From contig JALUZQ010000249.1 of the NCBI GenBank assembly GCA_027011725.1, positions 1 through 17,723 on the forward strand: DNA of 17,723 nt, in the 5' to 3' direction. The notes below the pieces were generated by a model, which was not told the origin of the DNA, ran no database searches, and saw only the letters and a program-made list of their open reading frames with translations. Below, one piece after another: positions 289-17,723 of the stretch. Positions within the stretch are counted from its first letter, which is position 1; each line of letters begins with the position of its first letter. The stretch comes from Sulfurimonas sp. Lineage in GTDB: Bacteria; Campylobacterota; Campylobacteria; Campylobacterales; Sulfurimonadaceae. Both the position numbers and the translations under genes were made by a program.

Positions 289-1136
289 TACACCTCAGCA
301 TTCAAAAAAAGCTCCAGGGGGCAGAAGAAAACATGAAACTTGAAGCTGCGTTTAGCGTACAAGAGGGAGAGTTCATCGCCCTTCGCGGCAAAAGTGGCAG
401 TGGAAAAACAACGCTGCTGCGCATTTTAGCAGGGCTTGAAGATGCCCAGGGGGAGATAATAGTCGAGAATGAAACATGGCTCTCAAAGGTAGCAACACTT
501 TCCCCGCAAAAGCGCCGCATCGGTTTTGTATTTCAAGACTATGCACTCTTTGAAAATATGACCATAGAACAAAATCTTCTGTTTGTGCAAAAGGACAAAG
601 CCCTCGCCGCACACCTGCTTGAGCTTACAGAACTCACAGCCCTGAAAGACCGCTACCCAAATGCTCTGAGCGGCGGACAAAAACAGCGCGTCAGCATTGC
701 ACGCGCACTAATGAAACGCCCAAAAATTCTGCTGCTTGATGAACCTCTCTCAGCACTCGATCCGCAGATGCGCAACAAACTCCAAAACGAACTCCTCACG
801 CTGCACAAAGAGTTTGGCACGACCACCATCATGGTAAGCCACGACCCAAGTGAGATATACAAACTCGCCTCACGCGTCATAGAGCTTGAAAACGGCAAAA
901 TCATCCATGACGGTACACCAAAAGAGGTACTGCTTAAAACACAAGGCTCACAAAAATTCTCATTTGAAGGAGAAGTGCTTGAGATAAAAAAGGTTGATGT
1001 CATCTATGTGGCTATTGTTGCCATTGGACAGCAGCTTGTCGAAATAGTCATCTCAAATGATGAGCAAAAACAACTGTGCATCGGGGAGCGTATCACCATC
1101 AGTACAAAAGCGTTTCAAGCAAATATCTTTTCTTAA
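285..1136 (+). CDS. modC: Molybdate ABC transporter ATP-binding protein ModC
   Basis: Cytoplasmic ATPase that drives the ModB permease. All ABC motifs are present in the 283-residue product: Walker A GKSGSGKT (35-42), Q-loop glutamine at 84 in FVFQDY, signature LSGGQ (128-132), Walker B ILLLDEP (148-154) and switch histidine 186 in MVSHD. After about residue 225 a short beta-rich tail ([18 protein letters not shown] onward) resembles a reduced TOBE/Mop-type domain; the protein is shorter than the roughly 350-residue enterobacterial ModC, so the oxyanion-binding regulatory domain is probably single or trimmed. The ATG at 285 overlaps the modB stop and is preceded by AAGAAGG, a good ribosome-binding site. 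Some other importer of the same family (tungstate, sulfate) is possible, but adjacency to ModB supports molybdate. Molybdenum enzymes such as nitrate or formate oxidoreductases would be the natural consumers; none is in this window. Confidence 0.9.
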
Positions 1137-1159
1137 CAAATTATTAAGCAGGCACTAAT

Positions 1160-1190
1160 TATAATATAAAATAATATTTATGGGGGGGTA
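1160..1190 (+). promoter_or_regulatory. Probable promoter -10 and G7-tract start region of the first REC/EAL gene
   Basis: A perfect TATAAT lies at 1160-1165 in very AT-rich DNA, 26 bases before the ATG at 1191; no convincing -35 hexamer at standard spacing is seen, which is common in Campylobacterota sigma-70 promoters. A run of seven G (1182-1188) sits two bases before the ATG and is the only purine-rich ribosome-binding element. A change in tract length would alter the ribosome-binding region and leader spacing. Inference from sequence only. Confidence 0.45.
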
Positions 1191-2849
1191 ATGTCCACCG
1201 ACTTTTGGGAAATTCTACTTGTTGACAACGACTTGTCAATGCACACCATCATCAAAAAAAACTTAGACGGAGTAAAACTCTTTGAGAAAAAAATAAAAGT
1301 GCTCCACGCACATAACGCACAAGAGGCCAAGCAGCTCATCAAAGAGAACCAAGACATAGCCCTTGCGTTTGTAGATATTGCTATGGAGACACCAGAGGCA
1401 GGTTTAGACCTTGTCAATTACATTCGTTATGATCTGCACAACCAAGATATGCGTGTGGTCATTTTGGACAGTGATGATGCTCCTGTACCTGCAAGTACTG
1501 TCATAGAGCGTTATGACATCAATGACTATAAAAATAAAACAAATATAGAATCACAACAAATCTTTCTCTATGTCCGTACCGCCTTAAAACAGTACCAACA
1601 GTTTAAAGAGCTGCGCGCAAACAGAGATGAAATCTACAAAAAAATGACCACAAATGAGGTTACCGGTCTGCCAAACAGAATGAAACTCTCTGAAAATCTC
1701 GGTACCATCGGAAAGAAATCTCTTATACTTTTAAATATTGATGATTTCAGCGTACTCAACAACCACAATGGTTTTGAGTTTGGAAACGCAGTCCTTCGGG
1801 CATTTGGAAGGTTTTTACAGCGCCGTTATGCAAAATATGCACAGGTCTTTCATATGGAAGCAGATATCTTTGCCATGCTGTGCGTACAGACAGATGACTT
1901 ACTCTCAGTAGAGCAAAATATTGTAAAAATAAAAGATGAAATTTTTAAACATCTCTTTTCTGTAAATCATACAAAAATACATTTGACTGCCAGTATTGGG
2001 ATCGTGCTCGATGAGTATGGAGATATCGTACAAAAAGCCGAGTTTGCACTCAAAGAAGCCAGACTCTATGGGAAAAACAATCTTCAAACCTATAGTGATG
2101 ATTTAAATATTTTACGAACCATTCACACAAACTCCCTTTGGACAGAGCGCATACGCAATGCGCTTGAACAAGACCAGGTACTTGCATACTTTCAACCTAT
2201 AAAAAATGCTAAAACAGGAAAAATAGAAAAGTATGAAACACTTGTGCGTATCAAATTTGAAGAGAAGATATACTCACCTTTTCACTTTTTAGAAGCAGCA
2301 AGATACAGTGGACAACTCTTTGAGATCTTTAAAAGAATGTTTGAAGAGGCTTGTAAAAAGGTCAGCACTACGGGTCTTAATTTTACTGTAAATGTCAGTG
2401 ACTATGATCTCAAACATCCAAGATTTATGCTCTACATTACTAAAATAGTAAAAAGATACCGCATAGATACGCATAGAATTACATTTGAGGTTTTAGAGAA
2501 CAACAGTATTTCAAAAGAGAACGAAATTCAAACAACGCTTAATAAACTCCATGAACTAGGATATAAACTTGCCATAGATGATTTTGGTGCAGAGTGTTCC
2601 AACTTTGGTCAACTCAATAATCTTCATATTGACTTCATCAAGATTGACGGGGCTTTCATTAAAAATATCGTTGAGGACAAAGACTCACAGATCATTGCAC
2701 AAACCATTCTCGATTTTGCCCACCAAAAGAACATTCCTGTAATAGCCGAATTTGTCTGTTCAGAAGAGGTATGCGACTATGTGAAAAAAATGGGTGTTGA
2801 CTATCTTCAAGGCTATAAAATCTCTGAACCCCAAGCAACTCTACTCTAA
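1191..2849 (+). CDS. Response-regulator-like protein with REC, degenerate GGDEF and EAL domains (copy 1)
   Basis: Cytoplasmic signalling protein of 552 residues, a likely c-di-GMP phosphodiesterase or c-di-GMP/GTP sensor. The receiver domain (about 7-135) has candidate phospho-acceptor D62 and the segment ERYDINDYKNK, resembling the receiver of DUF3369-type regulators; the acidic pocket reads VDND, so the usual second acid is Asn13. The GGDEF domain (about 155-300) keeps its fold motifs (TGLPNR, LLNIDDF, TASIGIV, KAEFALKEAR) but its signature reads EADIF (223-227), so cyclase activity is unlikely. The EAL domain (about 315-552) has ETL instead of EAL, yet keeps residues aligning with all eight catalytic positions of characterised EAL enzymes: E349, N401, E433, D463, D464, K484, E520 and Q540, with matching spacing from N401 onward. 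No membrane segment is seen. A close paralogue follows 72 bases downstream. Its sensor kinase partner is not in the window. Confidence 0.85.
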   Translation: MSTDFWEILLVDNDLSMHTIIKKNLDGVKLFEKKIKVLHAHNAQEAKQLIKENQDIALAFVDIAMETPEAGLDLVNYIRYDLHNQDMRVVILDSDDAPVPASTVIERYDINDYKNKTNIESQQIFLYVRTALKQYQQFKELRANRDEIYKKMTTNEVTGLPNRMKLSENLGTIGKKSLILLNIDDFSVLNNHNGFEFGNAVLRAFGRFLQRRYAKYAQVFHMEADIFAMLCVQTDDLLSVEQNIVKIKDEIFKHLFSVNHTKIHLTASIGIVLDEYGDIVQKAEFALKEARLYGKNNLQTYSDDLNILRTIHTNSLWTERIRNALEQDQVLAYFQPIKNAKTGKIEKYETLVRIKFEEKIYSPFHFLEAARYSGQLFEIFKRMFEEACKKVSTTGLNFTVNVSDYDLKHPRFMLYITKIVKRYRIDTHRITFEVLENNSISKENEIQTTLNKLHELGYKLAIDDFGAECSNFGQLNNLHIDFIKIDGAFIKNIVEDKDSQIIAQTILDFAHQKNIPVIAEFVCSEEVCDYVKKMGVDYLQGYKISEPQATLL

Positions 2850-2860
2850 TCTTACTCTAT

Positions 2861-2896
2861 ACAATAAGTATTGTTTAATGGATAGTGCTCTATAAT
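2861..2896 (+). promoter_or_regulatory. Palindrome and TATAAT box upstream of the second REC/EAL gene
   Basis: The 72-base gap between the two paralogues holds a perfect inverted repeat ACAATA-AG-TATTGT (2861-2874), followed by TATAAT at 2891-2896, 25 bases before the ATG at 2922. The right arm overlaps the best -35-like hexamer (TTGTTT, 2871-2876; spacing 14, short). The placement suggests an operator over an independent promoter for copy 2, rather than simple read-through from copy 1. AAAAGG at 2909-2914 is the ribosome-binding site. Confidence 0.4.
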
Positions 2897-2921
2897 TGAC
2901 TCGTAAGCAAAAGGTTATATT

Positions 2922-4577
2922 ATGGAAACTGTTCCCTGGAAAGTTCTTATACTTGATAATGAACCAATCATACACGAGATCATAAACACCACTCTTTTAG
3001 ATACAAAAGTTTACAACCGTCCCATAAATGTCTTTCATGCGCACAGTGCTGCAGAGGCTCGTACCATACTCAAAGAGCACCCTGACATCTGTGTTGCGTT
3101 CATTGACATTATGATCGACACGCCTCAAGAGGACTTACAGCTTGTCTCATATATTCGACAAACTCTTCAAAATGAACTTATACGCATTGTTCTTGTAGCG
3201 AGTGAGAGTTCTCCCATGCCTGCACGAGAACTTATAGAGCATTATGACATTAATGACTATAAAGACAAAGAGGATGTCATTCCAGATAAACTCTATACAG
3301 CCATTAGTATAGCAATCAAGCAGTATTCACAATTTTTGGAACTTCAAAAGAACCGACAAGAGTTGTATGAGCAGCTTACGCACAACGAAATAACCAACCT
3401 TCCAAACAGAATCAAACTCTATGAAAAGCTAGACAGTGTAGGAAACAAATCCTTAGTACTGCTCAACATAGATAACTTTGGACAATACAATGTAGCCCAA
3501 GGCTTTGCCTATGGAGATGAACTTTTACGTGTTTTTGCCGACTTTCTTACTGAGAACTATGCCGATAAAATGGATATCTTTCATCTCAATGCAGACATTT
3601 TTGCTATGCTCTGTTATGAAGAAGATCCTCGTGAGGTCGATAGATGTGTAGATGGTATCAAGTATGATATATCTCGACACACTTTTGACATACTTGGAAA
3701 TAAAATACGTCTAACCGCTTCACTCGGTGTGGTACTCAACGAAGATGGAAACCTCATCCAAAAAGCGGAATTTGCCCTCAAAGAAGCGCGTCTTTACAGC
3801 CGTAACAACGTTGCAAAATATAGTGATGACCTCAACATCATCCGAACAGTTCATGCCAACTCACTCTGGAGTCAGCGCATACGTGAAGCCTTTGAAAAAG
3901 GGAATGTCTGCACCTATTATCAGGCCATTAAAAATATTCGTACAAATACCATTAGCAAATACGAAGCGCTTGTACGGCTTGAGTACAATGGTAAAATATA
4001 CTCTCCGTTTGCATTTTTAGATGCCGCACTCTATAGTGGACAACTCTTTGACATATTTCAACTTATGCTTGAAAACATCTGTAAAAAAGCACAAACAACT
4101 TCTGTCTCATTTAGTATAAATGCAAGCCAATACGATCTCAATGAACCAGACTTTAAATCATTCCTGCAAACAACGCTGCAAAAGTACAACATAGACCCTC
4201 AGCGTATTACACTTGAGATACTCGAATACACAAGTATCTCAAACAAAGAAGCCGTCCAGCAACTCCTTCGAGAGATTCATGAGTATGGCTGTAAAATCGC
4301 CATCGATGATTTTGGAACAGAGTGTTCAAACTTCGCACAACTCAACAATATTCCCATAGATTTCATTAAAATTGATGGAGAGTTTATTAAAGATATCATA
4401 ACAGACACAAACTCCCAGATCGTGACACGCACCATCACTGACTTTGCACACCAAAAAGGCATACCGATCATAGCCGAATTTGTCTGCACTGGCGAAATAT
4501 GCGAGTACATTAAAATACTAGGCATAGAGTACGCCCAAGGGTATGAAATAGCAGAGCCTAAACCTGAACTAATCTAA
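2922..4577 (+). CDS. Response-regulator-like protein with REC, degenerate GGDEF and EAL domains (copy 2)
   Basis: 551-residue paralogue of the preceding gene with the same architecture and nearly identical domain boundaries. Receiver domain: LDNE pocket (again Asn at position 13), D62 as phospho-acceptor, HYDINDYKDK near 107-116. The GGDEF signature is degenerate (NADIF, 223-227) although flanking blocks are retained (TNLPNR, LLNIDNF, TASLGVV, KAEFALKEAR). Unlike copy 1, the EAL motif itself is intact (KYEAL, E348), and N400, E432, D462, D463, K483, E519 and Q539 complete the expected active site. The usual AEGVE loop reads AEFVC, as in copy 1, so the shared ancestor already had this change. 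Phosphodiesterase activity on c-di-GMP is the likeliest function, with the GGDEF-like domain as a regulatory or GTP-binding module. The 3' end overlaps the 3' end of the convergent addA gene by 20 bases, leaving no room for a separate terminator. Confidence 0.85.
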   Translation: METVPWKVLILDNEPIIHEIINTTLLDTKVYNRPINVFHAHSAAEARTILKEHPDICVAFIDIMIDTPQEDLQLVSYIRQTLQNELIRIVLVASESSPMPARELIEHYDINDYKDKEDVIPDKLYTAISIAIKQYSQFLELQKNRQELYEQLTHNEITNLPNRIKLYEKLDSVGNKSLVLLNIDNFGQYNVAQGFAYGDELLRVFADFLTENYADKMDIFHLNADIFAMLCYEEDPREVDRCVDGIKYDISRHTFDILGNKIRLTASLGVVLNEDGNLIQKAEFALKEARLYSRNNVAKYSDDLNIIRTVHANSLWSQRIREAFEKGNVCTYYQAIKNIRTNTISKYEALVRLEYNGKIYSPFAFLDAALYSGQLFDIFQLMLENICKKAQTTSVSFSINASQYDLNEPDFKSFLQTTLQKYNIDPQRITLEILEYTSISNKEAVQQLLREIHEYGCKIAIDDFGTECSNFAQLNNIPIDFIKIDGEFIKDIITDTNSQIVTRTITDFAHQKGIPIIAEFVCTGEICEYIKILGIEYAQGYEIAEPKPELI

Positions 4578-7275
4578 CTCCGTCTTCAAGCAAATAGCAA
4601 AGATGTCCACTCACTCTTTGCTCGCCAGTTATCGCTTTGACTGCGTTTACGTAGTAGCGCACCTGTGTGAGATGTTTGTCACTGAAGTTGAGTGAACTTT
4701 TATAGTCTATGATGGTGTAGCTGCCATCTTCATTTTTTACAAGTAGGTCAAGGTAGCGTAAGTTGTTTTTGAAACGCAGCGCCTTCTCTTTAAAAATCTC
4801 GCCATTACTTAGAGCTAAGAATTGCTCATGTTGCACAAGATTTTTTACTCTTTTTTCTATCTCCGTTATCTCTGCATCACTCAGAGCAAAGCCGTATTTG
4901 TTACGCATCATATCCACTGCGTTTGGCATTGCTTCAAGCGTAAAAGACTCCATCATCTCTAGCGTGTAGTGCAGTGCGAGTCCGAAGTTAATGGCACGCA
5001 GGTCATCTTCACCCTCATTTTCAAGTGCGAGCAGGTCGCTCTGTGTACCGTAGTAAAGATTTTCAAATGGCAGTTTTTTATGAACTTTTAGCACTTTTTT
5101 CTCTTTTTTCAAAGAGGTGAGTCTCCCAAACTCTCCATCATGCAGGTCTAAAAGCTCAAACGCAGAGTCCTTCTCTTTTTGAATGATTATGAGGTTTTCT
5201 CTTGCTCTTGTAAAGGCGACATAGAGCGCATTGAGCGTATCTTCTCGAGCGAGTTCTTTCTCTTTTGCAAGTGCATAGGCGTAGTCATGGTCTATAAGTT
5301 CTCTGTTTGCCGTTCGTAAAAAGAGGTTGTGCAGTTTTATGCCCTCATAATTGTAGATAATGGCATCACGAGATGGCGGTGCTTTTTTGAGTCTGTCAAG
5401 CACGATGACATGCTCATACTCCAAGCCTTTTGACTTATGAATGGTCAGCACCCGCACACCGCTGATATCTGCCGATGCTGCAGCCATATCAAGACGCTCA
5501 TACTCAAAAAGCAGCGCTTCGATGTCTGAGTAGGATGCCACTGCGTTTAGAAAGCGAATAAGATGAAAATCATCACTAAAAAGCGCATACTCATCGATGC
5601 AGCGCTTTACAACATCAACAAGTTTTACGGCATTAAAGTCCACATAGCGTATAGGTGCAACTTCTCGCTCTATAAGTGCAAAAAAGTTATGCCTATATAT
5701 ATCTTCGCGAAAGTAGAGATACTTCAAGTACTCCAAAACAGCCTTGACGCTTCTTTGGTTGATGAGCTTTGTCGTCGTCTCTGTCACTACCTCGATGTTC
5801 GCCGCTTCAAGACTGTTTTTTATCTCCTGTCCATCTCCATTTGTGGCGCACAGTATGGCTATCTCGTTTACATCTGCACCAAGAGAGATAAAACGCTCTA
5901 CCTGCTCGACCACCTCTTCTAAAAGTGCATCGTTTGTACGTATCTGCACATATCCACCCTGCGCTTCTTCTCGGACAAGCTGCGGCGTGTAGTTTTTTAT
6001 TTTTGAGAGAAAAGTTGCGTTTACAAACTCTATGACCTCTTTTTGAGAGCGGTAGTTTGTAAGCAGTTTTTTTACTTCAGTAGCGTTTTCACGCGCCACT
6101 TCACCAAAGAGTGCCGAGACACCCCCGCGAAATCGGTAGATGGACTGCTTCACATCCCCAACAAAAAAGAAACTCCCCTCATCAAATACGCCTTGCCCAG
6201 AGGTTATCTCCTGAATAAGCGGTTTGAGTATCTCATACTGTAAAATACTTGTATCTTGAAACTCATCGAGCAGCATATGCTCTATGGTCGCATCAAGACG
6301 GAAATAGAGAAATTCGCTGTCATTGAGGCGATGGAGTATCTCATAAACAAGCAGCGTCACATCAGAAAAACTCAGCTCACTTTCATCTACATAGAGCGCT
6401 TTTTTCGCCTTTTTGTAAATATCTACAAGTTCATTGAGCGCATGGAAAAAGTTCTGCTCTTTTGCTCTGTCATACCCTTTGACTGCGTTTTGAATGGTAA
6501 GCAGATGAACATCCATCTCAGGTGTAAAACACTTCTTAAATACCCAGTACTCCAGCGTCTCTTTATATACCCAGGTCTTAGATTTCAACTCAGTAAAATC
6601 TGCCACATCGACTGCGTTTAGCAGGGTTTTTGAAGCCCCTTTACAGTTTCGTATAATGCCCTGTAGAGCGCCAAGTGCTGCCATCGCCTCATCTTCAAAC
6701 TCTTGAGTCGATTTTTTAGCAAATGAGAGGTGTGCAAACTCCTCTTTTTTGAGGTAAAACTCATCAAGCAGACGGAAGATATCAGAGACTCTTTTCTTTG
6801 ACTCGAGTGAGAGGTTTATGAGTGTGCTGCGTTTGTTTGCAACGCTTACCTCTTTTAAAAACCTGCTCATAAGTTTTACTTCGTGCTGCTCACTGGCCGT
6901 TGTAAAGTCCGGCATCAAAGAGGCATAGAGGGAGAACTTGCGTAAAATTTGCGTAAAGAAGCTGTCAATGGTCATTATTTTTGTATTGGCATTTAAAAAC
7001 TCTGCAAGAATTTTTTTACGACGTGCAAGGAGTTCTGCCTCGCTCATTTCACACTCTTTTGCTATCTCTGCAAGTTCACCACGCTCAGGCAGCTCTTCAA
7101 GTGTCTCGACTATTCGCTCACTCATCTCGCGCGCAGCTTTGTTAGTAAAGGTAAGCGCTAAAATCTTTGAAGCATCTGCTCCTTTAAAGAGCAAAGAGAG
7201 GTAACGCACAACAAGCATAAAGGTCTTTCCACTTCCTGCGCTCGCTTCGTAAGCCAAATTATTTACAAAAGCCAC
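4558..7275 (-). CDS. addA: AddA-type (RecB-like) UvrD-family helicase-nuclease
   Basis: Helicase-nuclease subunit that processes double-strand DNA ends for RecA loading. The 905-residue protein shows superfamily 1A helicase motifs in order: Walker A ASAGSGKT (11-18), LTFTNKAAREM (41-51), DEFQD (337-341), GDVKQSIYRFRG (373-384), TNYRS (406-410), TIHKSKGLEYE (611-621) and LYVAFTRAREN (684-694). The C-terminus carries a RecB-family nuclease with H769, D843, D857 and K859 in IIDYKS, and Q871. The start is GTG (7273-7275), whose first base is also the last base of the addB stop (TAGTG), with GGGAGAG upstream; translation is therefore likely coupled. It is the last gene of the run that begins with ccoN. 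Its end overlaps a convergent gene by 20 bases. Five octamer words CTGCGTTT and three AAACGCAG lie inside it. In C. jejuni and Helicobacter, AddAB is the RecBCD equivalent. Confidence 0.93.
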   Translation of the reverse strand: MAFVNNLAYEASAGSGKTFMLVVRYLSLLFKGADASKILALTFTNKAAREMSERIVETLEELPERGELAEIAKECEMSEAELLARRKKILAEFLNANTKIMTIDSFFTQILRKFSLYASLMPDFTTASEQHEVKLMSRFLKEVSVANKRSTLINLSLESKKRVSDIFRLLDEFYLKKEEFAHLSFAKKSTQEFEDEAMAALGALQGIIRNCKGASKTLLNAVDVADFTELKSKTWVYKETLEYWVFKKCFTPEMDVHLLTIQNAVKGYDRAKEQNFFHALNELVDIYKKAKKALYVDESELSFSDVTLLVYEILHRLNDSEFLYFRLDATIEHMLLDEFQDTSILQYEILKPLIQEITSGQGVFDEGSFFFVGDVKQSIYRFRGGVSALFGEVARENATEVKKLLTNYRSQKEVIEFVNATFLSKIKNYTPQLVREEAQGGYVQIRTNDALLEEVVEQVERFISLGADVNEIAILCATNGDGQEIKNSLEAANIEVVTETTTKLINQRSVKAVLEYLKYLYFREDIYRHNFFALIEREVAPIRYVDFNAVKLVDVVKRCIDEYALFSDDFHLIRFLNAVASYSDIEALLFEYERLDMAAASADISGVRVLTIHKSKGLEYEHVIVLDRLKKAPPSRDAIIYNYEGIKLHNLFLRTANRELIDHDYAYALAKEKELAREDTLNALYVAFTRARENLIIIQKEKDSAFELLDLHDGEFGRLTSLKKEKKVLKVHKKLPFENLYYGTQSDLLALENEGEDDLRAINFGLALHYTLEMMESFTLEAMPNAVDMMRNKYGFALSDAEITEIEKRVKNLVQHEQFLALSNGEIFKEKALRFKNNLRYLDLLVKNEDGSYTIIDYKSSLNFSDKHLTQVRYYVNAVKAITGEQRVSGHLCYLLEDGVRLVQV

Positions 7276-9620
7276 TACTCTCTCCCACAGATGATTTTGT
7301 ATTCGCAGAACTGGCAGTGCTTTACATCGTCCGTCTTTTCAAAGTTGAGCTCTTCTACTGCAAGCAGATCTCTAATGTGTGATTTGAGTATCTCTATCTT
7401 CTCTTTCAAAAAGGCTTCCGGCACTATTTTCGACTCTTTTAAGTCATAAAAAGCACACCCCTCGACATTGCCAAGCCCACCCGCTAACAGATAGTAAAAC
7501 TCCAGCTGAAAATCTACGGCATCCATAAAGTTGTTCTTGTTGTTGAGCATATATGAACCCGTTTTATAATCAAGCACCTCTATGATATTGTCACGTTTAT
7601 CTACTCTGTCTATCTGCCCAACTATGGTCATTCCGCTAAAAGGCTCTTTAAAAAACTCTTCTGTTTTATGAACCTTCCACCCCTCTTTAAAGCGCACCAT
7701 CTCTGTATGCACAAAAGCATCGAGGCGTTTTTTCTGCATCGCTACGAGGTATTTGTCAAGTTCACTGTTGCCGCAATATTCATCAAGTGCCGTATCAATG
7801 TCTCGCTTTAGCGCTCGTGCATCATCATAACTGCTCTTTTTTTCATAGACCGCGCTTAAGGCACGATGCACCACATTTCCTATCTCATACTCTTCGGGCA
7901 TATCTTTTGGAATCTTGTGATTTTGAATATTTTGCACATACTTATAGTAGTACTTGCGTTTACAGCTCAGGTAAGTTTTCAGACGCGTTGCAGAGAGCTC
8001 TACATTTTTAAAGCTGTACTCCTGCACAATTTCTTGCTCTTGCATTGGTACTCTTTTTGAACGATTAAAAAGTATAGCTGCGAAGTCAAGTTCATCGTGC
8101 TCATTTTGCTCTTGTATGCCAAGCTGCTTTAAAAATCGTGAGCCTGAGCTCTCACTTGAACTTACATACGAAATTGCTACCTCTTTAGCGTGAGACATAA
8201 GCATTTCATAGTAGTGCTTTTGCAGATTTTCTCTGTCACTCATGGTCGGAAGCCCTGCCATCTCTCGTATTTTTGTATTTAAAAACATATCTTTATCGCT
8301 GCGTTTAGGAACATTTTTATCATCAAAATCTATAATGATAACCCCGTCAAAATGAACACTTCTTGTCTCAAGCACACCCATGACTGTCACTTTTCCACCG
8401 CGAACATCATCAAGTGTGCGACTAGAGAGTCGTTGCATAAAAATGTTCAGCAGCGATTTTACACCCATCTCACGCATAAAAGGAAGGAGCTTTTCAAACT
8501 TAAAGAGCTCCTCTTCGTAGATTTTTATCTCCTGCTTTGAGCCAAAGAGTTCTGAGAGTTCACCCATAAACGCAGTGAAATCTACCTCAGAAGCTTTTTT
8601 GTAGTAGATAGAGTGGAGTTTCAAATAAAGTGCATCCCCTACCCTGTCCAGTCGTGCTTCATTCTCTTTGGAGTCTTGGTCTATCGCTTTGAGCGTTGCG
8701 TTTAACTGTGTGTAGAGCTTTGTCGTATTGTATGGCTCACCCATAGCAAAGTTTAGGTTTGACTTGTCATCGAAAGCGCGTATCATCTGTGCCTGCTGTT
8801 CATTTGGCAGTATTACGGCAATATTTTCTGCGCGATGTCCCTTTGCTACAAACTCATAAATCTTTTGTTTGATAAAAGCTACCTGTAAAAGTGGTTCGCT
8901 AAAACTCTGACAAGTGATTTGTGAGTGTTTCTCTCTTTTGCTTTTACTTAAAACAGTTCGCTCATTGAGTGAGAGTTCATACTCATAACCACTCTCAAGC
9001 TCAAAGCCAAGTTCTTGTAATTTACTCTGCATCTTTGCATTAAACGCAGTTGTACTGAGTCTGAGTCTTATCTCGCTAAACGCAGCGGCTTGTTCTAAAA
9101 GTTCAAGCTCAAAATTTGTCAAATATCCATCAAGAGAGATCTCTATTTTTTTATGCGTTTTTGCGTAAGCTGCGTTAAATCTGTAACGTTTTGGTAAAAA
9201 TATGCGGTCGAGGAGTTTTCGCTCATCACAAAGCTTCTCATAACGCCTGTACAGCTCCTGTAAGATGGTGATGTGCTCTTCATACTCCGCATAGACATCC
9301 GCTGCGTCTAGCATAGAGATGTCAAATAACTCTGCACTGAGCTCTTCAAAGAATTTAAATATATAGGAGCTGTTCTTTGTAAAAGTAAAGAAGTTTCTCT
9401 CTATTTGCAGGTTTGCAAACTCTTTAAAATCTGAAGCCTCTAAAAGCAGCAGTGTTCTACTGTCATCGTCAAGATATTTGTAGCCCTCTACTATACAGAG
9501 CTTGGCTATGAAATCACTCATCGTGATGTAGTGGGGTAAAAAAAGTGTTTCGGAGTCTGTAAAGAGTTGCTCGTGGCGAATTGCACGAGCAGAGGGGAGG
9601 ACTATGGTTGTATCATCCAT
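7275..9620 (-). CDS. addB: AddB-type nuclease subunit with probable iron-sulfur cluster
   Basis: Partner of AddA in the AddAB helicase-nuclease; 781 residues. The C-terminal PD-(D/E)XK domain has GNVVHRAL (H585), QIDRVD (D671), EVLDYKTGS (D684, K686) and QLEFYY (Q705). Four cysteines, C553 in YLSCKRKYYY and C769, C772, C778 near the C-terminus, match the Fe-S clamp that brackets the nuclease in AddB proteins. The N-terminal half is diverged helicase-like; no GxxGxGKT Walker A is visible at the N-terminus (ILPNEQQAQMI near 270 and VLPSARAIRHEQ near 7 resemble inactive UvrD folds), so ATP-driven unwinding should come from AddA alone. The ATG at 9618-9620 lies 3 bases after the FixH stop with no strong ribosome-binding site, suggesting coupling to fixH translation. 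Its stop shares a base with the addA GTG start. Confidence 0.9.
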   Translation of the reverse strand: MDDTTIVLPSARAIRHEQLFTDSETLFLPHYITMSDFIAKLCIVEGYKYLDDDSRTLLLLEASDFKEFANLQIERNFFTFTKNSSYIFKFFEELSAELFDISMLDAADVYAEYEEHITILQELYRRYEKLCDERKLLDRIFLPKRYRFNAAYAKTHKKIEISLDGYLTNFELELLEQAAAFSEIRLRLSTTAFNAKMQSKLQELGFELESGYEYELSLNERTVLSKSKREKHSQITCQSFSEPLLQVAFIKQKIYEFVAKGHRAENIAVILPNEQQAQMIRAFDDKSNLNFAMGEPYNTTKLYTQLNATLKAIDQDSKENEARLDRVGDALYLKLHSIYYKKASEVDFTAFMGELSELFGSKQEIKIYEEELFKFEKLLPFMREMGVKSLLNIFMQRLSSRTLDDVRGGKVTVMGVLETRSVHFDGVIIIDFDDKNVPKRSDKDMFLNTKIREMAGLPTMSDRENLQKHYYEMLMSHAKEVAISYVSSSESSGSRFLKQLGIQEQNEHDELDFAAILFNRSKRVPMQEQEIVQEYSFKNVELSATRLKTYLSCKRKYYYKYVQNIQNHKIPKDMPEEYEIGNVVHRALSAVYEKKSSYDDARALKRDIDTALDEYCGNSELDKYLVAMQKKRLDAFVHTEMVRFKEGWKVHKTEEFFKEPFSGMTIVGQIDRVDKRDNIIEVLDYKTGSYMLNNKNNFMDAVDFQLEFYYLLAGGLGNVEGCAFYDLKESKIVPEAFLKEKIEILKSHIRDLLAVEELNFEKTDDVKHCQFCEYKIICGRE

Positions 9621-9623
9621 AAT

Positions 9624-10151
9624 CTAGTAGGCAGATGCCTCTTTAATACTTCTATCGTGTTTGATTCTTGTATCTGTTTTTACATCATAAAAACGGTAGT
9701 CTTTGCCTACGTTTACTTTGAGTAATAAATTCCATGCACCAGTTTTAGGAAACTTTACATCTTTAAAAACGTATAGGCCATTTTCAAACGCAGGATTAGC
9801 TATCTTTTCATCATACTTATGTGTATCAGGACGACTAATAGCTAATATCATCGTAGCGTTTTCTACTGGTTTCCCATCAACTGTTGTAAGTGCATACTTT
9901 ACGTCAACACCATTTTCATCTATTTTTTCTGTCACATATTTTAGCTTATATTTTTTATCAAACGCAATTCTTGCCTGAATGAAATCATTTGCTCTTGCAT
10001 CAGCATCCTGATAGCTTGTCATATAAGCGTCACTCTCTTGGATGTCCGCCTTGCTTGTAACTATTACAGTCATTACACAAAAGCCAAATACAGCCGTAAT
10101 TGCTGCAGCCACACCATATGGCCAGAGCTTACCACTTTCAAATATTGTCAT
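9624..10151 (-). CDS. fixH: FixH-family membrane protein
   Basis: Assembly factor for cytochrome cbb3 oxidase by family knowledge (FixH/CcoH acts at the membrane in maturation of the oxidase). The 175-residue product starts with a short cytoplasmic stretch ending in KLWPYG, then one membrane helix (about 12-33, VAAAITAVFGFCVMTVIVT), followed by a periplasmic domain. The domain begins SYQDADARANDFI and ends with an immunoglobulin-like beta section (NPAFENGLYVFKDVKFPKTG, WNLLLKVNVGKDYRFY) usual for FixH. Its ATG (10149-10151) is preceded by GAAGG and overlaps the end of the TPM-like gene by 14 bases; addB follows after 3 bases. One octamer word (9786-9793) lies in it. Assignment rests on the WP-plus-helix start, the YQ motif and the neighbourhood; exact role relative to other cbb3 maturation factors (ccoG, ccoI, ccoS, not in the window) is inferred. 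Confidence 0.75.
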   Translation of the reverse strand: MTIFESGKLWPYGVAAAITAVFGFCVMTVIVTSKADIQESDAYMTSYQDADARANDFIQARIAFDKKYKLKYVTEKIDENGVDVKYALTTVDGKPVENATMILAISRPDTHKYDEKIANPAFENGLYVFKDVKFPKTGAWNLLLKVNVGKDYRFYDVKTDTRIKHDRSIKEASAY

Positions 10152-10848: not shown

Positions 10849-10857
10849 TGAAACTAC

Positions 10858-10947: not shown

Positions 10948-10957
10948 CTTTACGCTC

Positions 10958-11173: not shown

Positions 11174-11175
11174 AT

Positions 11176-12117: not shown

Positions 12118-12126
12118 ATATCTCTC

Positions 12127-12330: not shown

Positions 12331-12342
12331 TACAAACCTTTA

Positions 12343-13035
12343 CTATTTAAGACTGTTTAAATACGCAATTAAAGCAACGATTTCTGGGATTTCTCCACGT
12401 GCTACTGCATCTTTAACATCTTGATTTTTCATTTTAGATGCAACTTCTTTTGCTTCAGCCAATGCATCAGCATGTGCTTCTGCAACAGATTTTGCCAATT
12501 TAACAGTTTGTGTCGTTCCATCTTTCATAGGAACTGGTTTGTTATATGGCACACCAAAGAATTGTTGATCTGTTAATTGCTCTGCAAACGCAGTGTCTAT
12601 ATCTGCTTTGTTTGTGAACATCCACGGATATGCAGGCATAATAGAACCTTGAACGATAGCAGCAGGATCCATCATGTGATTTTCATGCCACTCAGTCGTT
12701 CTGTAGTTACCTACACGGTGAAGGTCTGGACCAGTTCTTTTAGAACCCCAAAGGAATGGTCTGTCATATGCATACTCCCCACTTAAAGAGTAGTGACCAT
12801 AACGGTCAGTTTCTGCTTTAAACGGACGAATAAGCTGTGAATGACAAGCATTACAACTGTTTTTAATATAAACTTGGCGACCTGCAAGTTCTAGCGTAGT
12901 ATATGGTTTAGTACCAATTACTGGACGAGAAGCTTGTGCAAAGTTTGGAACGATTTCGATCAAACCAGCAAAAGCAATAACAACGAACACACCTACCGCG
13001 AAAAAGAACGGGTGTTTTTCTAACCAATGAAACAT
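12343..13035 (-). CDS. ccoO: cbb3-type cytochrome c oxidase monoheme subunit CcoO
   Basis: Membrane-anchored monoheme cytochrome c subunit that passes electrons from CcoP to the CcoN core. The 230-residue protein opens with a charged start and one helix (about 10-27), then the FixO block LAGRQVYIKNSCNACHSQ with the heme-c site CNACH at 61-65, followed by RPFKAETDRYGHYS and GPDLHRVG, characteristic of CcoO. The axial methionine is likely in SIMPAYPWMF. The C-terminal part contains an Ala- and Lys-rich helix (about 170-205) and ends IVALIAYLNSLK. GGGAGG precedes the ATG (13033-13035), 18 bases after ccoN. One octamer word lies at 12586-12593. Confidence 0.95.
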   Translation of the reverse strand: MFHWLEKHPFFFAVGVFVVIAFAGLIEIVPNFAQASRPVIGTKPYTTLELAGRQVYIKNSCNACHSQLIRPFKAETDRYGHYSLSGEYAYDRPFLWGSKRTGPDLHRVGNYRTTEWHENHMMDPAAIVQGSIMPAYPWMFTNKADIDTAFAEQLTDQQFFGVPYNKPVPMKDGTTQTVKLAKSVAEAHADALAEAKEVASKMKNQDVKDAVARGEIPEIVALIAYLNSLK

Positions 13036-13053
13036 AATATAATCCTCCCTTTC

Positions 13054-14547
13054 TTAAGCGCCCATAGGCGAAGCATTTTGTAATTCTGACTCTTCAACTG
13101 GACGAGCAGACATAGTTTTATAGATGTTATACGCGAACATAAAGAAACCGATTAGGTATAACAATCCACCTGTACCACGAAGTGCATAGTATGGGTGAAG
13201 TACATCAACAGTATCCATAAATGAGTATGCTAAGTTACCAAACTCATCGTGCGCACGCCACATCATACCTTGAGTGATACCTGCGATCCACATAGAAGTA
13301 AAGTAAAGAACGATACCTAATGTTTGAATCCAGAATTGTGCAGCCATAAGGCTTTTTGAATATAACTCACGTTTAAATACACGTGGAGCCATATGATAAA
13401 GTGCAGCAATAATCATGAATCCAACCCAACCAAGAGTACCATCATGAACGTGACCAACAATCCAGTCAGTAAAGTGCGCAATCGCATTTACAGATTTGAT
13501 AGCTTGGATAGGACCTTCTAGTGTAGAGAACATATAGAATGTAGAACCAAGAACCATAAACTTGATTAGTGGAGATGCTGCAACTTGTTGCCATTCACCC
13601 TTCATTGTAAGAAGCATATTGATCGCTGAACCCCATGATGGCAAAATAAGTACTACAGAGAAAATAGAACCCATAGTTTGCATCCAGTCAGGAACAGTTG
13701 AGTAAAGAAGGTGGTGACCACCAGCCCAAAGGTAAACGAACATTAGACCCCAGAATGAAAGTAAAGACAATTTATATGAATAAATCGCTTGACCAGATTC
13801 TTTTGGTAAGAAGTAGTAGATCATAGCAACGATAGGCACTGTAAATACGAATGCAACCGCATTGTGTCCATACCACCATTGTACAAGTGCATCATTTGTA
13901 CCTGCATACATTGATACTGAGTGTAACCAGCTACCAATTCCTGTTTCACCTGCTGCTGATGTAGCAAGCATAGTAGGAACTTCCATATTGTTGAACAGGT
14001 AAAGCATAGCCACACCTAAGAATGTAGCAATATAGTACCATACAGAAATATAGAGTGATTTCTCACGGCGAATACCGATAAGACCAAATATACTCACACC
14101 CCATAGTACCCATACCACAACAATAGCGATATCTATAGGCCATTCAAATTCCGCATACTCTTTTGAAGTAGAATATCCCATAAACAGTGTCACAACAGCT
14201 GCTGCTACACCAAGAACATAAAGCCAGAAATGTAATTTTCCAATTAACATTAAAAACTTAGATTCAGCCATAGATACTTTTAGTACCCTTTGACCAACAT
14301 AATACCAAGTAGCAAAAATACCACTTAATGTAAAACCAAATGCAACTGCATCAGTGTGCAATGGACGAAGACGACTAAAGTTTGTGTATTCTGCAATACC
14401 TTGTCCGAAGATTGTGTTCAATCCAGGGAATGCAAGTTCAAATGCAATAAAAACACCGATACTCATGCCAACAATTCCTAAAACAATTGTTGTAACCATG
14501 AACATCTTTGCAACCGTATAGTCGTACTCTAATGGACGATTCTCCAT
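13054..14547 (-). CDS. ccoN: cbb3-type cytochrome c oxidase catalytic subunit CcoN
   Basis: Core of the high-affinity, proton-pumping cbb3 oxidase that reduces oxygen to water in the inner membrane. The 497-residue, roughly 12-helix protein has all metal ligands: H64 in RPLHTDA (low-spin heme b), H228 in YGHNAVAF, H278 and H279 in GGHHLLYS (CuB), H366 and H368 in GHVHDG (heme b3 and heme b), and the candidate crosslinked tyrosine in YYFLPK (244-245). No membrane helix is missing and the length is normal for the family. AAGGAGG precedes ATG (14545-14547). It is the first gene of a contiguous run of ten genes ending with addA, and 241 bases of leader separate it from carA. The enzyme fits life at low oxygen. 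One incidental opposite-phase reading frame inside it is not a gene. Confidence 0.97.
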   Translation of the reverse strand: MENRPLEYDYTVAKMFMVTTIVLGIVGMSIGVFIAFELAFPGLNTIFGQGIAEYTNFSRLRPLHTDAVAFGFTLSGIFATWYYVGQRVLKVSMAESKFLMLIGKLHFWLYVLGVAAAVVTLFMGYSTSKEYAEFEWPIDIAIVVVWVLWGVSIFGLIGIRREKSLYISVWYYIATFLGVAMLYLFNNMEVPTMLATSAAGETGIGSWLHSVSMYAGTNDALVQWWYGHNAVAFVFTVPIVAMIYYFLPKESGQAIYSYKLSLLSFWGLMFVYLWAGGHHLLYSTVPDWMQTMGSIFSVVLILPSWGSAINMLLTMKGEWQQVAASPLIKFMVLGSTFYMFSTLEGPIQAIKSVNAIAHFTDWIVGHVHDGTLGWVGFMIIAALYHMAPRVFKRELYSKSLMAAQFWIQTLGIVLYFTSMWIAGITQGMMWRAHDEFGNLAYSFMDTVDVLHPYYALRGTGGLLYLIGFFMFAYNIYKTMSARPVEESELQNASPMGA

Positions 14548-14583
14548 ATATAGCCTCCTTAAGATTCAAAGCAATTAAGCCTC

Positions 14584-14605
14584 ATAAGTGCACATGTACA
14601 CTTAT
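14584..14605. promoter_or_regulatory. 22-bp near-perfect palindrome in the ccoN leader
   Basis: The arms ATAAGTG (14584-14590) and CACTTAT (14599-14605) are exact inverted repeats, and the central eight bases pair except for one position (ACATGT core), so 10 of 11 base pairs match. A further lone ATAAGTG half-site lies at 14657-14663. Position is between the AT-rich candidate promoter of ccoN and its ribosome-binding site, about 40 bases before the ATG. It could be an operator for a dimeric regulator or a hairpin in the leader RNA. It does not match the FNR/CRP-type TTGAT-N4-ATCAA box. No regulator is identified. Confidence 0.5.
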
Positions 14606-14610
14606 CAAGC

Positions 14611-14680
14611 TAATTAACGGGTATATATTAACAATTTGATTGTTTAAAGAATCTTAATAAGTGATTTAATTTACAAATTA
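14611..14680 (-). promoter_or_regulatory. Candidate promoter region of the cco-add operon
   Basis: Very AT-rich leader. On the minus strand the best -10-like sequence is TAATATATA (about 14621-14630), just upstream (in the direction of transcription) of the palindrome. A second small inverted repeat ACAAT-TTG-ATTGT occupies 14631-14643, in the area between -10 and a possible -35. No good -35 hexamer is visible. Since this is the only sizeable gap before the gene run from ccoN to addA, the main promoter should be here. Confidence 0.35.
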
Positions 14681-14750
14681 TTATCTTCTTGTTTACTTTT
14701 GTAATTTTATTTTTAATTAAGAAAGTGATAGTTTTATCATCATGGCAAGG

Positions 14751-14774
14751 AAAAACGGCATCTTTAAGATACCG
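14751..14774 (-). terminator. Rho-independent terminator downstream of carA
   Basis: On the minus strand, fifteen bases past the carA stop, CGGTATCT and AGATGCCG form an 8-bp stem (one G-U pair) with a 3-base loop, followed at once by TTTTT. This is a compact intrinsic terminator that separates the carA unit from the cco operon, which therefore needs its own promoter. Read on the plus strand the same hairpin is followed by a weaker T run; no plus-strand gene ends here. Confidence 0.75.
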
Positions 14775-14788
14775 CTTGTTTTATTACT

Positions 14789-15928
14789 TTATCTTTTAAT
14801 AAGAGAGAGGAATTCCGAAAATATGTAACGACTCTCTTTTGGACCAGGAGAAGCTTCTGGATGGTGTTGTACTGAGAAAATAGGCTCATCGTTATATTTG
14901 AGTCCTTCAATAGTATTGTCAAAAAGATTTTTATGCGTTACTTCTGCTATTTCAGTAATATTATCAGGTACATTATAGTTGTGATTTTGCGCTGTAATCT
15001 CAACAAAACCTGTCTTTTCATTTTTCACAGGATGGTTTCCGCCATGGTGACCAAATTTTAGCTTAAAGGTGTCATATCCATGAGAAATAGAGAGGAGTTG
15101 ATGCCCTAAACAGATGCCAAACATCGGCACTTTTGCAGCAATAAGTTTTTTGATCTGCTCCTGCTCACGTTTTAGAACAAGTGGATCCCCCGGGCCGTTT
15201 GATAAAAAGACACCGTCAATGAGTTTTTCATTGTATTTTTCTATCAAATCTTCAGCTATAAAGTCATTTGGTATGACCTCTACTTCTATGCCGGCACTGA
15301 CAAGTTCATTTAATATATTGCGTTTAACACCAAAATCTATGGCAACAATCTTTGCCTGCGCTTTTGGCGGTTCATCATACTTGAACGCTCTGTAAGAAAA
15401 AGTACTTGAGTTATGCTTGTATGGTTCTTTTGTACTCACCTGTTCTATGTAGTTCACATCTTCAATGCGTGGAGAGCTTTCTAGGATTTTTTTGAGTTCT
15501 TCTTTGTCACTGACTTCCGTAGAAGCGACCATCATCATAGCCCCTTCACGTCTGAGCATCTTCGTGAGGTATCTTGTGTCAATGTTACAAATCCCCATCA
15601 CATCATTGTCCTCTAAAAATTCATGGAGTGACTTCTGGGCTCTAAAGTTTGAGTAACGCGCTTGATACTTACGGACTATCATCCCTTTGGCATGAGCTTT
15701 TTGGCTCTCCATATCTTGGTCGTTCACACCGACATTTCCTATCTCGGGAGCGGTAAAAGTTACGAACTGACCTGCGTAAGATGGGTCACTCATTATCTCT
15801 TGATAGCCTGTCATAGAGGTATTAAAAACTATCTCACCTACTTCTGTCTTTTGTGCACCAAAGCTCTCAGCTTCTAGGTACGTTCCGTTTTCCAAATAGA
15901 TCCAAACTTTTTTCAATTCAATGCTCAT
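14789..15928 (-). CDS. carA: Carbamoyl phosphate synthase small (glutaminase) subunit CarA
   Basis: Releases ammonia from glutamine for the large subunit CarB to form carbamoyl phosphate for arginine and pyrimidine synthesis. The 379-residue protein has the CarA N-terminal domain (VWIYLENGTYLEAESFGA; FNTSMTGYQEIMSDPSYAGQ; IDTRYLTKMLRREGAM) and a class I glutamine amidotransferase domain (about 192-379) with FLSNGPGDP (241-249), nucleophile C273 in FGICLGHQ, and H356 plus E358 in QHHPEASPGP. Length and motifs are complete. ATG (15926-15928) follows GGAG, 3 bases after the DUF507 stop, so both are in one transcript. carB is not in the window, as is common in this phylum where carA and carB are often unlinked. 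An intrinsic terminator follows. Confidence 0.96.
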   Translation of the reverse strand: MSIELKKVWIYLENGTYLEAESFGAQKTEVGEIVFNTSMTGYQEIMSDPSYAGQFVTFTAPEIGNVGVNDQDMESQKAHAKGMIVRKYQARYSNFRAQKSLHEFLEDNDVMGICNIDTRYLTKMLRREGAMMMVASTEVSDKEELKKILESSPRIEDVNYIEQVSTKEPYKHNSSTFSYRAFKYDEPPKAQAKIVAIDFGVKRNILNELVSAGIEVEVIPNDFIAEDLIEKYNEKLIDGVFLSNGPGDPLVLKREQEQIKKLIAAKVPMFGICLGHQLLSISHGYDTFKLKFGHHGGNHPVKNEKTGFVEITAQNHNYNVPDNITEIAEVTHKNLFDNTIEGLKYNDEPIFSVQHHPEASPGPKESRYIFSEFLSLIKR

Positions 15929-15931
15929 CTT

Positions 15932-16483
15932 CTACTCCATTCCTCTTTTCATTAACTCTTCACGGTAAAGCTTTTCATGTAAAATGTCAAACTCATCAGT
16001 TCCCGGGATAAATTTTCGTTTGTATGAACGTATTTTATTCATCACTGCATCTTCTATTTCTGAACTGTCTGCCATAAACGCAGTCATTGCATTATAGATG
16101 ACATTTTTCACACGGTTCTCCGTCACATCAAAATGTATAAGATCCTCTTCGTAGAGTTCATCAAGTATTTTGTGTGAAAGGTCAGAGAAACGTTCTTCAT
16201 AATCAAGTATAACACCAAATTCAGGTGCAAGTTTCTTCTTAATCATAAAAAAGAGCTGTCGCTCATCTGCAAGCATAAATTCTATTTCATCTTCATTGGC
16301 ATCACAGATCTCATTGACTTTTTCCTCTAAGGCCATCTCTTGTTTGACACTCTCAAGCAGCACTTTTTCTGCTTCAGCCACTATGGGTTCTAGCCCTTTT
16401 GTCATAGAGACGATACCACTTTTATTGAGTTCTATTGCAATTTTATTTGCAATGTGAGGAATAGTTTTTTGAGTCATTTTCAT
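15932..16483 (-). CDS. DUF507 family protein
   Basis: A 183-residue, highly charged, mostly helical soluble protein of unknown function. Motifs recalled for DUF507 are visible: IPHIANKIAIELNKSG at the start, a two-repeat layout in which an E-rich helical first half (to about 90) is followed by a similar second half (LSHKILDELYEEDLIHFD, NRVKNVIYNAMTAFM), and a basic C-terminal stretch KIRSYKRKFIPGTDEFDILH. Members occur in Campylobacterota and Aquificota, typically beside carA. The ATG at 16481-16483 is used here; a second ATG two codons on is an alternative. AGG lies 9 bases upstream, a modest ribosome-binding site. It is the first gene of the unit with carA. One octamer word lies at 16076-16083. 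Confidence 0.85.
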   Translation of the reverse strand: MKMTQKTIPHIANKIAIELNKSGIVSMTKGLEPIVAEAEKVLLESVKQEMALEEKVNEICDANEDEIEFMLADERQLFFMIKKKLAPEFGVILDYEERFSDLSHKILDELYEEDLIHFDVTENRVKNVIYNAMTAFMADSSEIEDAVMNKIRSYKRKFIPGTDEFDILHEKLYREELMKRGME

Positions 16484-16513
16484 AATTAGTGCCTAGAGTA
16501 AATTTATTGTGAT

Positions 16514-16547
16514 ATTCTACACTATTAAATGTAAAACTTTGATTATA
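16514..16547 (-). promoter_or_regulatory. Candidate promoter elements for DUF507-carA
   Basis: The 174-base gap between two divergent genes contains, on the minus strand, TATAAT at 16542-16547 and TAGAAT at 16514-16519; either could serve as a -10 box for the DUF507-carA unit. No matching -35 hexamer is clear. Low-confidence call based on AT-rich hexamers only. Confidence 0.3.
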
Positions 16548-16580
16548 TTTAGCTCATATCTCATTTTCTGCTCTAAAATT

Positions 16581-16609
16581 TTGTAATTTATATAATAAAA
16601 TGTTATACT
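16581..16609 (+). promoter_or_regulatory. Candidate sigma-70 promoter of the lipoprotein gene
   Basis: TTGTAA (16581-16586) and TATACT (16604-16609) are separated by 17 bases, the standard sigma-70 spacing, and a further TATAAT lies at 16591-16596 within the spacer. The start codon is at 16658, so the leader would be about 40 bases. AAAGGGGAAA (about 16644-16653) is the ribosome-binding site. Confidence 0.5.
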
Positions 16610-16657
16610 TTTTACAGATTATTCGATGGAATTCTTTACTCTTAAAGGGGAAACATC

Positions 16658-17723
16658 ATGAAAAGAAGAAAGTTTATACACCTGAGTGCACTTACGGCTC
16701 TGTCACTGCAAAGTTCTCTAACACTGACAGGCTGTGGCAATTCAAGCAGTAAAAAATCAACTCAGCTAAACGCAGCCACCATAGATGACAATGTACGTTC
16801 AATCACAGCACTGCAAAGTGAGAATGAACTGCTCCACACACAGATAAAACAAAAGAGTGTTTCTCTGCTTGAGTCCTCTGATGCCGCAGAACTCTTTCAA
16901 AAGTTTCAAAATAACGAACTAACACTCACTCCAAACGCAACAGATATCTACTTCCCGCAAAATAAGCTTTGGAGTAGTTATCAGGCATCACACTCTCTTG
17001 CCTATGAGCATCTCACATCACAACTGACAAAACTCAAGGCAAGTTTTAGAATTTATGACCATAAACAGACACAGCAAAAACAAAATGGCATGCGGGGTGC
17101 TGCACTAGCCGCTCCTGAGAAATCTCCAGCCATAGACAGTGCCGTAGCTACATTTTTACAGGCTGTGGAAGATTTTAAAAACCTTAAATTTGGTGCAGTA
17201 GCCATTGATGGGCTTACGCTTTCCATTAAGCTTGTGTATGTTGTTATAGAACAGGTAAAGGACTCAACAGCAGGACAGTATATGCTCGGTCTTGTCTTTG
17301 GAGCGATAGAGTCACTGCTAAAGAACATCCAGCAAAAATCACTTTCCAATTTGGACTTCTCTTCCAACCAAGATATAGCCCTGAGCATTGCAAAAATGGC
17401 ACTTGCCATCATCAGTGTGCAAAGTCTCAGCACTATCTCTACCTATTCACCGCAACGTTCTGCACTCAATGCAGCTGCCACTGAAGATGCAACAGACACA
17501 GAGACTGCAACACTCATACAAAACCTCGTACTCCAAAGCCAGTTGATTAGCACACTTATGGCAATTATTAACAAAATCATTGCAGAGGTTGTACTGGCAA
17601 CGACAACACTTGCAGGTAATGTCACAGACCCTAATTACCAACTCACAGACGCTGACAAAGCGCTCATCGCTTCACTCAAGCCGCTTTCATCTGTACTTGC
17701 CCTGCTTGGACTCATTGTCAAAG
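16658..17723 (+). CDS. Unrecognised lipoprotein with twin-arginine-like signal (3' end beyond the window)
   Basis: Open from ATG at 16658 to the window edge (355 codons, no stop), so incomplete. The N-terminus KRRKFIHLSALTALSL has adjacent arginines (R3, R4) with F6, resembling a Tat motif, then a hydrophobic stretch and a lipobox LTGC with C26 as the lipidation site. The mature part has a Ser/Asn/Lys-rich linker, a probable helical section (45-90), then a mainly alpha-helical, Ala/Leu/Ser/Thr-rich section with three long apolar stretches (about 178-222, 238-260, 284-320) separated by polar linkers. No enzyme motif, heme site or metal cluster is seen. I do not recognise the family. Good spacing of ribosome-binding site and start, and the fact that the frame stays open for over 1 kb, support a real gene. 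Codon use resembles the neighbours. Confidence 0.8.
   Translation, partial: MKRRKFIHLSALTALSLQSSLTLTGCGNSSSKKSTQLNAATIDDNVRSITALQSENELLHTQIKQKSVSLLESSDAAELFQKFQNNELTLTPNATDIYFPQNKLWSSYQASHSLAYEHLTSQLTKLKASFRIYDHKQTQQKQNGMRGAALAAPEKSPAIDSAVATFLQAVEDFKNLKFGAVAIDGLTLSIKLVYVVIEQVKDSTAGQYMLGLVFGAIESLLKNIQQKSLSNLDFSSNQDIALSIAKMALAIISVQSLSTISTYSPQRSALNAAATEDATDTETATLIQNLVLQSQLISTLMAIINKIIAEVVLATTTLAGNVTDPNYQLTDADKALIASLKPLSSVLALLGLIVK

Follow-up and report, generated by a model that had tools for sequence, protein, structure and literature searches.

Why should a single octamer recur 18 times within less than 18 kb of bacterial DNA? The stretch in question (the window, i.e., the whole of the DNA analyzed here; 17,723 nucleotides) is contig JALUZQ010000249.1 of Sulfurimonas sp., and the octamer is CTGCGTTT (word A). 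Its 18 exact copies comprise eight on the plus strand and 10 on the minus strand (Table 1), while dinucleotide shuffles of the window led us to expect 0.73 copies and reached 18 in 0 of 200 trials. A sequence-only reading of the window had listed these copies together with the codons in which they are read; all of its positions are exact, and 18 of its 18 codon readings are correct. We propose that word A, usually followed by a purine, is probably the DNA uptake sequence (DUS; also called uptake signal sequence [USS]) of this species. What is new here is that word A is one dialect among a set within the genus.

The source genome (G000) is represented by a fragmented assembly (1,416,224 bases; 279 contigs; 67.6% complete). 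This assembly carries 1087 copies of word A (566 and 521 by strand) and 29 copies of the reversed word (19 and 10), which served as a crude control for the genome-wide counts. Word A occurs roughly every 1.3 kb, in either orientation and chiefly within genes. In a 184,396-base sample (13% of G000), word A was the top-scoring 8-mer, with 169 copies versus 7.2 expected under an order-2 Markov model. The open reading frames (ORFs) of this sample contained 155 copies, while synonymous codon shuffles within genes gave a mean of 15.3 (standard deviation, 3.8; maximum, 27 in 100 shuffles). Since the observed number far exceeds that of the synonymous shuffles, selection acts on word A as DNA. The sequence-only reading had made this claim from the window, and it withstood both of the checks proposed with it: the genome sample lies far above the codon-preserving expectation, and the enrichment extends across the assembly instead of being confined to the window.

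The flanks of word A were analyzed in 171,724 bases of G000 (154 sites, 151 of them with full flanks). The base on the 3' side is A or G in 92% of the sites and that on the 5' side in 81%, and little information is found past about two bases on either side (i.e., the information is confined to ~10 bases). Flanks this uninformative show that word A does not belong to a longer repeat, and a dispersed repeat was ruled out. No significant clumping of the word was detected over 22 fragments of G000 (P = 0.14).

Replication polarity was judged via two stand-ins, with the origin and terminus unmapped: the GC skew (in fragments no shorter than 8 kb whose skew reached 0.03) and the agreement in strand between neighboring copies. 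In four genomes, 99 copies of word A lie with the G-rich strand and 101 against it (confidence interval, 0.42 to 0.57), and neighbors share a strand in 122 cases and differ in 131. Word A is not strand-polarized, as the even split within the window had already led the sequence-only reading to argue. For words A to D pooled over 11 genomes (the other words are introduced below), the ratio by G-rich strand is 163:142, and the numbers of same-strand and different-strand neighbors are 182 and 210, respectively. The Chi site of Escherichia coli has a 75% share on one strand; such a share on the G-rich strand is excluded for the pooled words (P = 3e-16).

We surveyed 37 genomes of the genus (Sulfurimonas, as assigned by similarity; G000 included) and 23 other genomes of the order. 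The genus name is based on CcoN, which shows 89% similarity to the closest named record among the matches listed, and it agrees with the guess made in the sequence-only reading. Words were first spotted in per-genome samples ranging from a few kb to 40 kb, and five of them were then counted genome-wide; a genome qualified as a bearer when its copies exceeded 100 and amounted to four or more times the reversed control. Word A is borne by eight of the 37 genus genomes, namely, G000, G014 (1367 copies), G016 (1822), G009 (409), G023 (406), G010 (361), G029 (214), and G003 (146). Word B (TGCGTGAG) has five bearers (G007, G013, G020, G022, and G027; 621 to 948 copies; controls, 22 to 39), as does word C (CATGTAGA; G032, G006, G004, G017, and G033; 234 to 690 copies; 4.4 to 6.4 times the control). 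Word D (CATGTGGA) is borne by G036 alone (589 copies; control, 51), and word F (TGGCGTTW) is borne by four genomes (G009, 1075; G019, 328; G029, 281; G010, 101; controls, 17 to 46). Words A, B, C, and D never share a bearer, while A and F are found together in G009, G010, and G029. In total, 20 of the 37 genus genomes bear one or more of the five words, and the 23 genomes from elsewhere in the order include no bearer of any of them. Across 298 genomes sampled from the class, word A exceeded five times the control only in G000 and G016, followed by G062 with 3.7 times (judged by eye). G062, itself a genus member, is unusual in that its two strands differ in their CTGCGTTT counts (30 versus 111); we saw no such asymmetry elsewhere.

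Sample counts suggest that further words exist beyond these five. G011 contains TACATGTAA 38 times in 100 kb (1.5 expected), and other candidates, likewise from samples only, are TCGCGTTTA in G009, CTGCATTT in G003, and GCTCATGT in G016. In the last genome, CGCTCATG and GCTCATGT make up a second frequent word beside A (30 and 27 copies in 80 kb; 2.3 and 2.8 expected, respectively). A word of the TACATGTAA type is also dense in two further named Campylobacterota records, where ACATGTAA was listed 20 times in 21 kb (L021) and 12 times in 10.6 kb (L007), in k-mer lists that count palindromes twice; this dialect may reach beyond the genus members sampled.

The words largely follow clades in a tree built from up to seven proteins. 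The five bearers of word B form one clade, the bearers of word A include the clade of G000, G014, and G023, and those of word C include the clade of G006, G032, and G017; words A and F both occur in the clade of G009, G010, G029, and G019. The exceptions are G016 (word A) and G004 (word C), which are placed away from their fellow bearers. Site conservation was assessed in small samples (about 9 to 24 kb aligned). Between G000 and G014, both of dialect A, 9 of 11 copies are in place, compared with 21% of the remaining 8-mers (P = 3e-5); between G007 and G027, both of dialect B, the corresponding values are 11 of 11 and 52% (P = 7e-4). At the word A sites of G000, relatives with other dialects retain the word in 1 of 19 (G007), 0 of 18 (G027), 0 of 13 (G011), and 0 of 10 (G032) cases, i.e., 1 of 60 in total, in four comparisons that share many of the same G000 sites. 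G000 and the distantly placed G016 share word A at 5 of 20 sites (P = 0.07) or, counted from G016, at 5 of 13 (P = 0.01). This is what signals that are maintained and sometimes switched should look like.

G009 offers a comparison within a single assembly. Beside a chromosome-sized contig of 2.76 Mb, it includes a contig of 81,892 bases (C2), which we infer to be a plasmid because of its size and separateness. The large contig carries 55 F words in 135 kb versus 7.4 expected, while C2 carries 5 in 80 kb versus the 2.0 expected from its own composition; at the density of the large contig, the C2 count has a probability of 3e-9. A separate word, ATGACTTCG, is frequent on C2, with 12 copies in 40 kb (G009:C2:1-40000; L251 and L252) versus 0.12 expected; it possibly represents iterons or a repeat.

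An uptake word is preferred as the explanation because the dialects are related to clades, sites are conserved within dialects, and the plasmid-like contig nearly lacks the F word of its host. No defining genomic feature of DUS/USS that we tested was missing: the copy number, the lack of polarity of word A, the dialects that follow phylogeny, and the competence machinery in a bearer were all observed. It thus appears well supported by the genome evidence that the word system works in the manner of uptake sequences, and we infer both the role of the word in DNA uptake and its reading by a minor pilin. A pilus component that reads sequence would capture free DNA containing the word at the cell surface, and import would then proceed via ComEA/ComEC. 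Recombination would thereby favor DNA of the cell's own dialect, and the words of related species, similar in length and density, would limit exchange between species.

Among the means by which bacteria choose DNA of their own kind, uptake sequences are the best known; work on them has concerned two families. A 2025 paper names the Neisseriaceae and Pasteurellaceae as the only families known to have them and proposes the minor pilin ComN as the USS receptor (PMC12616744). Within the literature searched, which includes few subscription journals, no paper turned up that links uptake sequences to Sulfurimonas, Campylobacterota, or Epsilonproteobacteria, and the papers listed for the octamer itself deal, to judge by their titles, with other subjects. 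The DUS of the Neisseriaceae, as described in PMC3630211, resemble the Sulfurimonas words in that a short nonpalindromic word occurs in hundreds to thousands of copies, in dialects that follow phylogeny, together with a type IV pilus and ComEC machinery. The eight Neisseriaceae dialects share a conserved CTG core, and many of the words reported here likewise share RCRT (by eye). The Sulfurimonas words nevertheless differ in sequence, belong to another phylum, and, in the case of word A, show no excess between genes or at terminators. With the USS of the Pasteurellaceae they share a density of roughly one copy per kb and the occurrence of more than one kind (two clade-bound types, Hin and Apl, there and at least five words in Sulfurimonas). 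As presented in PMC12616744, however, USS are discontinuous with flanking segments, whereas the information of word A lies within ~10 bases. By eye, the Sulfurimonas words are unrelated to the USS AAGTGCGGT/ACAAGCGGT.

We then consider the machinery that might read the words. comEC was found in 56 of the 60 genomes, dprA in 10 of 11 dialect genomes, and prepilin genes in 15 of 15 genomes, G000 being included in each case. An HHH_3 (ComEA-type) match was obtained in 9 of the 11 dialect genomes and lies in a short ORF of 87 to 123 amino acids in seven of them. According to the maps of G000 and G016, two prepilin genes adjoin priA at ~8 kb from comEC, and one to three prepilin genes are present in 21 of 28 comEC stretches scanned. 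The priA-linked prepilin (loci L152-L155) has an ortholog in 20 of these 28 genomes, with a very variable C-terminal part. Among the 190 pilin pairs in this set, the three most similar are those of G000, G014, and G016 (0.76, 0.69, and 0.67), the strongest bearers of word A; the G016 pilin is thus alike to the other A pilins despite a tree distance of 0.64 to 0.66. The C-terminal part also diverges between sisters, as if exchanged or diversified (0.27 for G014 and G023 at a tree distance of 0.12; 0.26 for G010 and G029 at 0.16), and G023 has 226 copies of word A per Mb versus 684 in G014. Both the likeness among the strongest A bearers and the deviating pilin of G023 would suit a receptor.

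A more specific scenario can be sketched, which we consider rather doubtful as a whole. Uptake specificity would have arisen in Sulfurimonas independently of the Neisseriaceae and Pasteurellaceae, the fast-changing minor pilin beside priA and comEC would read the word, and exchange of this pilin between species would switch the dialect, leaving the old words to decay, with G023 caught in mid-switch. Even apart from this scenario, uptake sequences in Campylobacterota would represent a third origin, with at least five words in one genus. Comparisons among the species could then test how such words emerge, spread, and change over, and which of the two, receptor or genome, changes first; DNA exchange among these sulfur oxidizers would also be structured by dialect.

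Several observations weigh against an uptake function or its proposed receptor. None of the five words reaches the bearer threshold in 17 of the 37 genus genomes, and since comEC and other competence genes also occur in genomes without any of the words, these genes do not discriminate. No dprA match was obtained in G014 (an incomplete assembly) among the 11 dialect genomes searched, and no ComEA-type match was obtained in G000 (67.6% complete) or in G007. When words A, B, C, and F were considered over 20 genomes, the similarity of the pilin C-terminal part did not correlate with the words (r = 0.003; partial r = -0.016; P = 0.58). The pilins of the B genomes are mostly unlike one another (0.25 to 0.33 for G022 versus the other three; 0.33 to 0.36 for G013 versus G007 and G027), and two other conserved prepilins gave partial r values of 0.22 (P = 0.10; 10 genomes) and -0.20 (P = 0.86; 9 genomes). 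As a receptor candidate, the priA-linked pilin looked convincing for dialect A, but the four words together did not bear this out. One-mismatch variants of word A are near chance in 172 kb, with the sole exception of TTGCGTTT (44 versus 12.8). Unlike DUS/USS, word A shows no intergenic excess in the 184-kb sample of G000 (0.75 copies per kb between genes and 0.91 in genes); a terminator role was dropped for this reason, and the association with inverted pairs and terminators that is common, but not defining, for DUS/USS was not seen for word A by these densities. Finally, taken on its own, word B shows a lean toward the G-rich strand (35:13; five fragments; P = 0.002).

This lean would suit a Chi-like hotspot read by AddAB, or a replication-linked signal such as KOPS (FtsK orienting polar sequences), and so would the presence of both AddA and AddB in the window and the shortness and frequency of known Chi words. 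Known Chi and KOPS are, however, strand-polarized, whereas word A and the pooled words are not; moreover, the lean of word B is nonsignificant when set against the compositional expectation of 0.61 (P = 0.10), and neighboring copies of word B lie on the same strand in 34 cases and on different strands in 37. The polarity tests thus disfavor such a signal, which we regard as very unlikely. That the words are by-products, whether of codon usage, of protein motifs, or of a dispersed mobile repeat, deserves almost no credence: most copies of word A within genes are indeed read in one of two codon phases (Ala-Phe or Asn-Ala), but the synonymous shuffle rules out codon preference and protein motifs, and flanks nearly uninformative past about two bases argue against a repeat.

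Two further explanations accommodate more of the data. A chromosome organization or protein-binding site (e.g., of a nucleoid protein or a recombination or repair factor), multiplied by selection and unrelated to uptake, would fit every genome-level feature equally well except for the dialect pattern. It is nonetheless unlikely in our judgment, given that dialect replacement within one genus should be more readily accounted for with a mating-type-like label than with an internal housekeeping site and that near-absence from the plasmid-like contig better suits a self-label. It is also quite improbable that the words are targets of DNA methyltransferases (alone or in restriction-modification systems), retained for a benefit of their methylated copies in repair, regulation, or self-recognition, with different enzymes accounting for the dialects. 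Fixed short words that vary among related species could be enzyme specificities, and HIP1 of cyanobacteria is methylated and very frequent. However, restriction normally makes its targets rarer instead of multiplying them. An effect acting throughout the cell would be expected to leave its mark on a resident plasmid as well, yet C2 holds few F words; moreover, the words are related in sequence and shared by descent in neighboring clades. HIP1 is, like word A, a very frequent short word across the chromosome, but it is palindromic, whereas CTGCGTTT is not its own reverse complement; HIP1 is not known to form dialects within a genus, while the present words differ between neighboring clades. A HIP1-like word, which the sequence-only reading had left open, is thus disfavored, and among the options named there, an uptake word fits best.

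Table 1. Copies of word A in the window, with the residues encoded at each copy and the ORF, where assigned
Word	Positions	Strand	Codon reading	ORF
CTGCGTTT	346..353	+	Ala-Ala-Phe	ABC-type ATPase ORF
CTGCGTTT	1784..1791	-	Gly-Asn-Ala-Val	
CTGCGTTT	4641..4648	+	Val-Asn-Ala-Val	addA
CTGCGTTT	4772..4779	-	Leu-Arg-Phe	addA
CTGCGTTT	4917..4924	+	Pro-Asn-Ala-Val	addA
CTGCGTTT	5158..5165	-	Ser-Ala-Phe	addA
CTGCGTTT	5541..5548	+	Leu-Asn-Ala-Val	addA
CTGCGTTT	6483..6490	+	Gln-Asn-Ala-Val	addA
CTGCGTTT	6612..6619	+	Leu-Asn-Ala-Val	addA
CTGCGTTT	6827..6834	+	Lys-Arg-Ser	addA
CTGCGTTT	8299..8306	+	Lys-Arg-Ser	addB
CTGCGTTT	8568..8575	-	Thr-Ala-Phe	addB
CTGCGTTT	9042..9049	-	Thr-Ala-Phe	addB
CTGCGTTT	9078..9085	-	Ala-Ala-Phe	addB
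CTGCGTTT	9786..9793	-	Pro-Ala-Phe	
CTGCGTTT	12586..12593	-	Thr-Ala-Phe	CcoO-like ORF
CTGCGTTT	16076..16083	-	Thr-Ala-Phe	
CTGCGTTT	16768..16775	-	Leu-Asn-Ala-Ala	

Within addB, the three Ala-Phe pairs preceded by CT are spelled GCG-TTT, while the remaining five use GCT or GCC; the contrast had been drawn beforehand with four of these five. Elsewhere in the window (1191-4577), two adjoining, similar ORFs of 552 and 551 amino acids have, by eye, the look of response-regulator GGDEF-EAL proteins. The word AAAAGAG/CTCTTTT is also enriched in samples of G000, the window included (313 versus 140 in 172 kb), and tops the lists in several relatives; this enrichment is perhaps Shine-Dalgarno-like or codon-related. 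In G016, the DnaB gene (L151:9801-12287) encodes 828 amino acids in place of 481, and the extra stretch, which starts with a CLGRGTKV-like motif, looks by eye like an intein.

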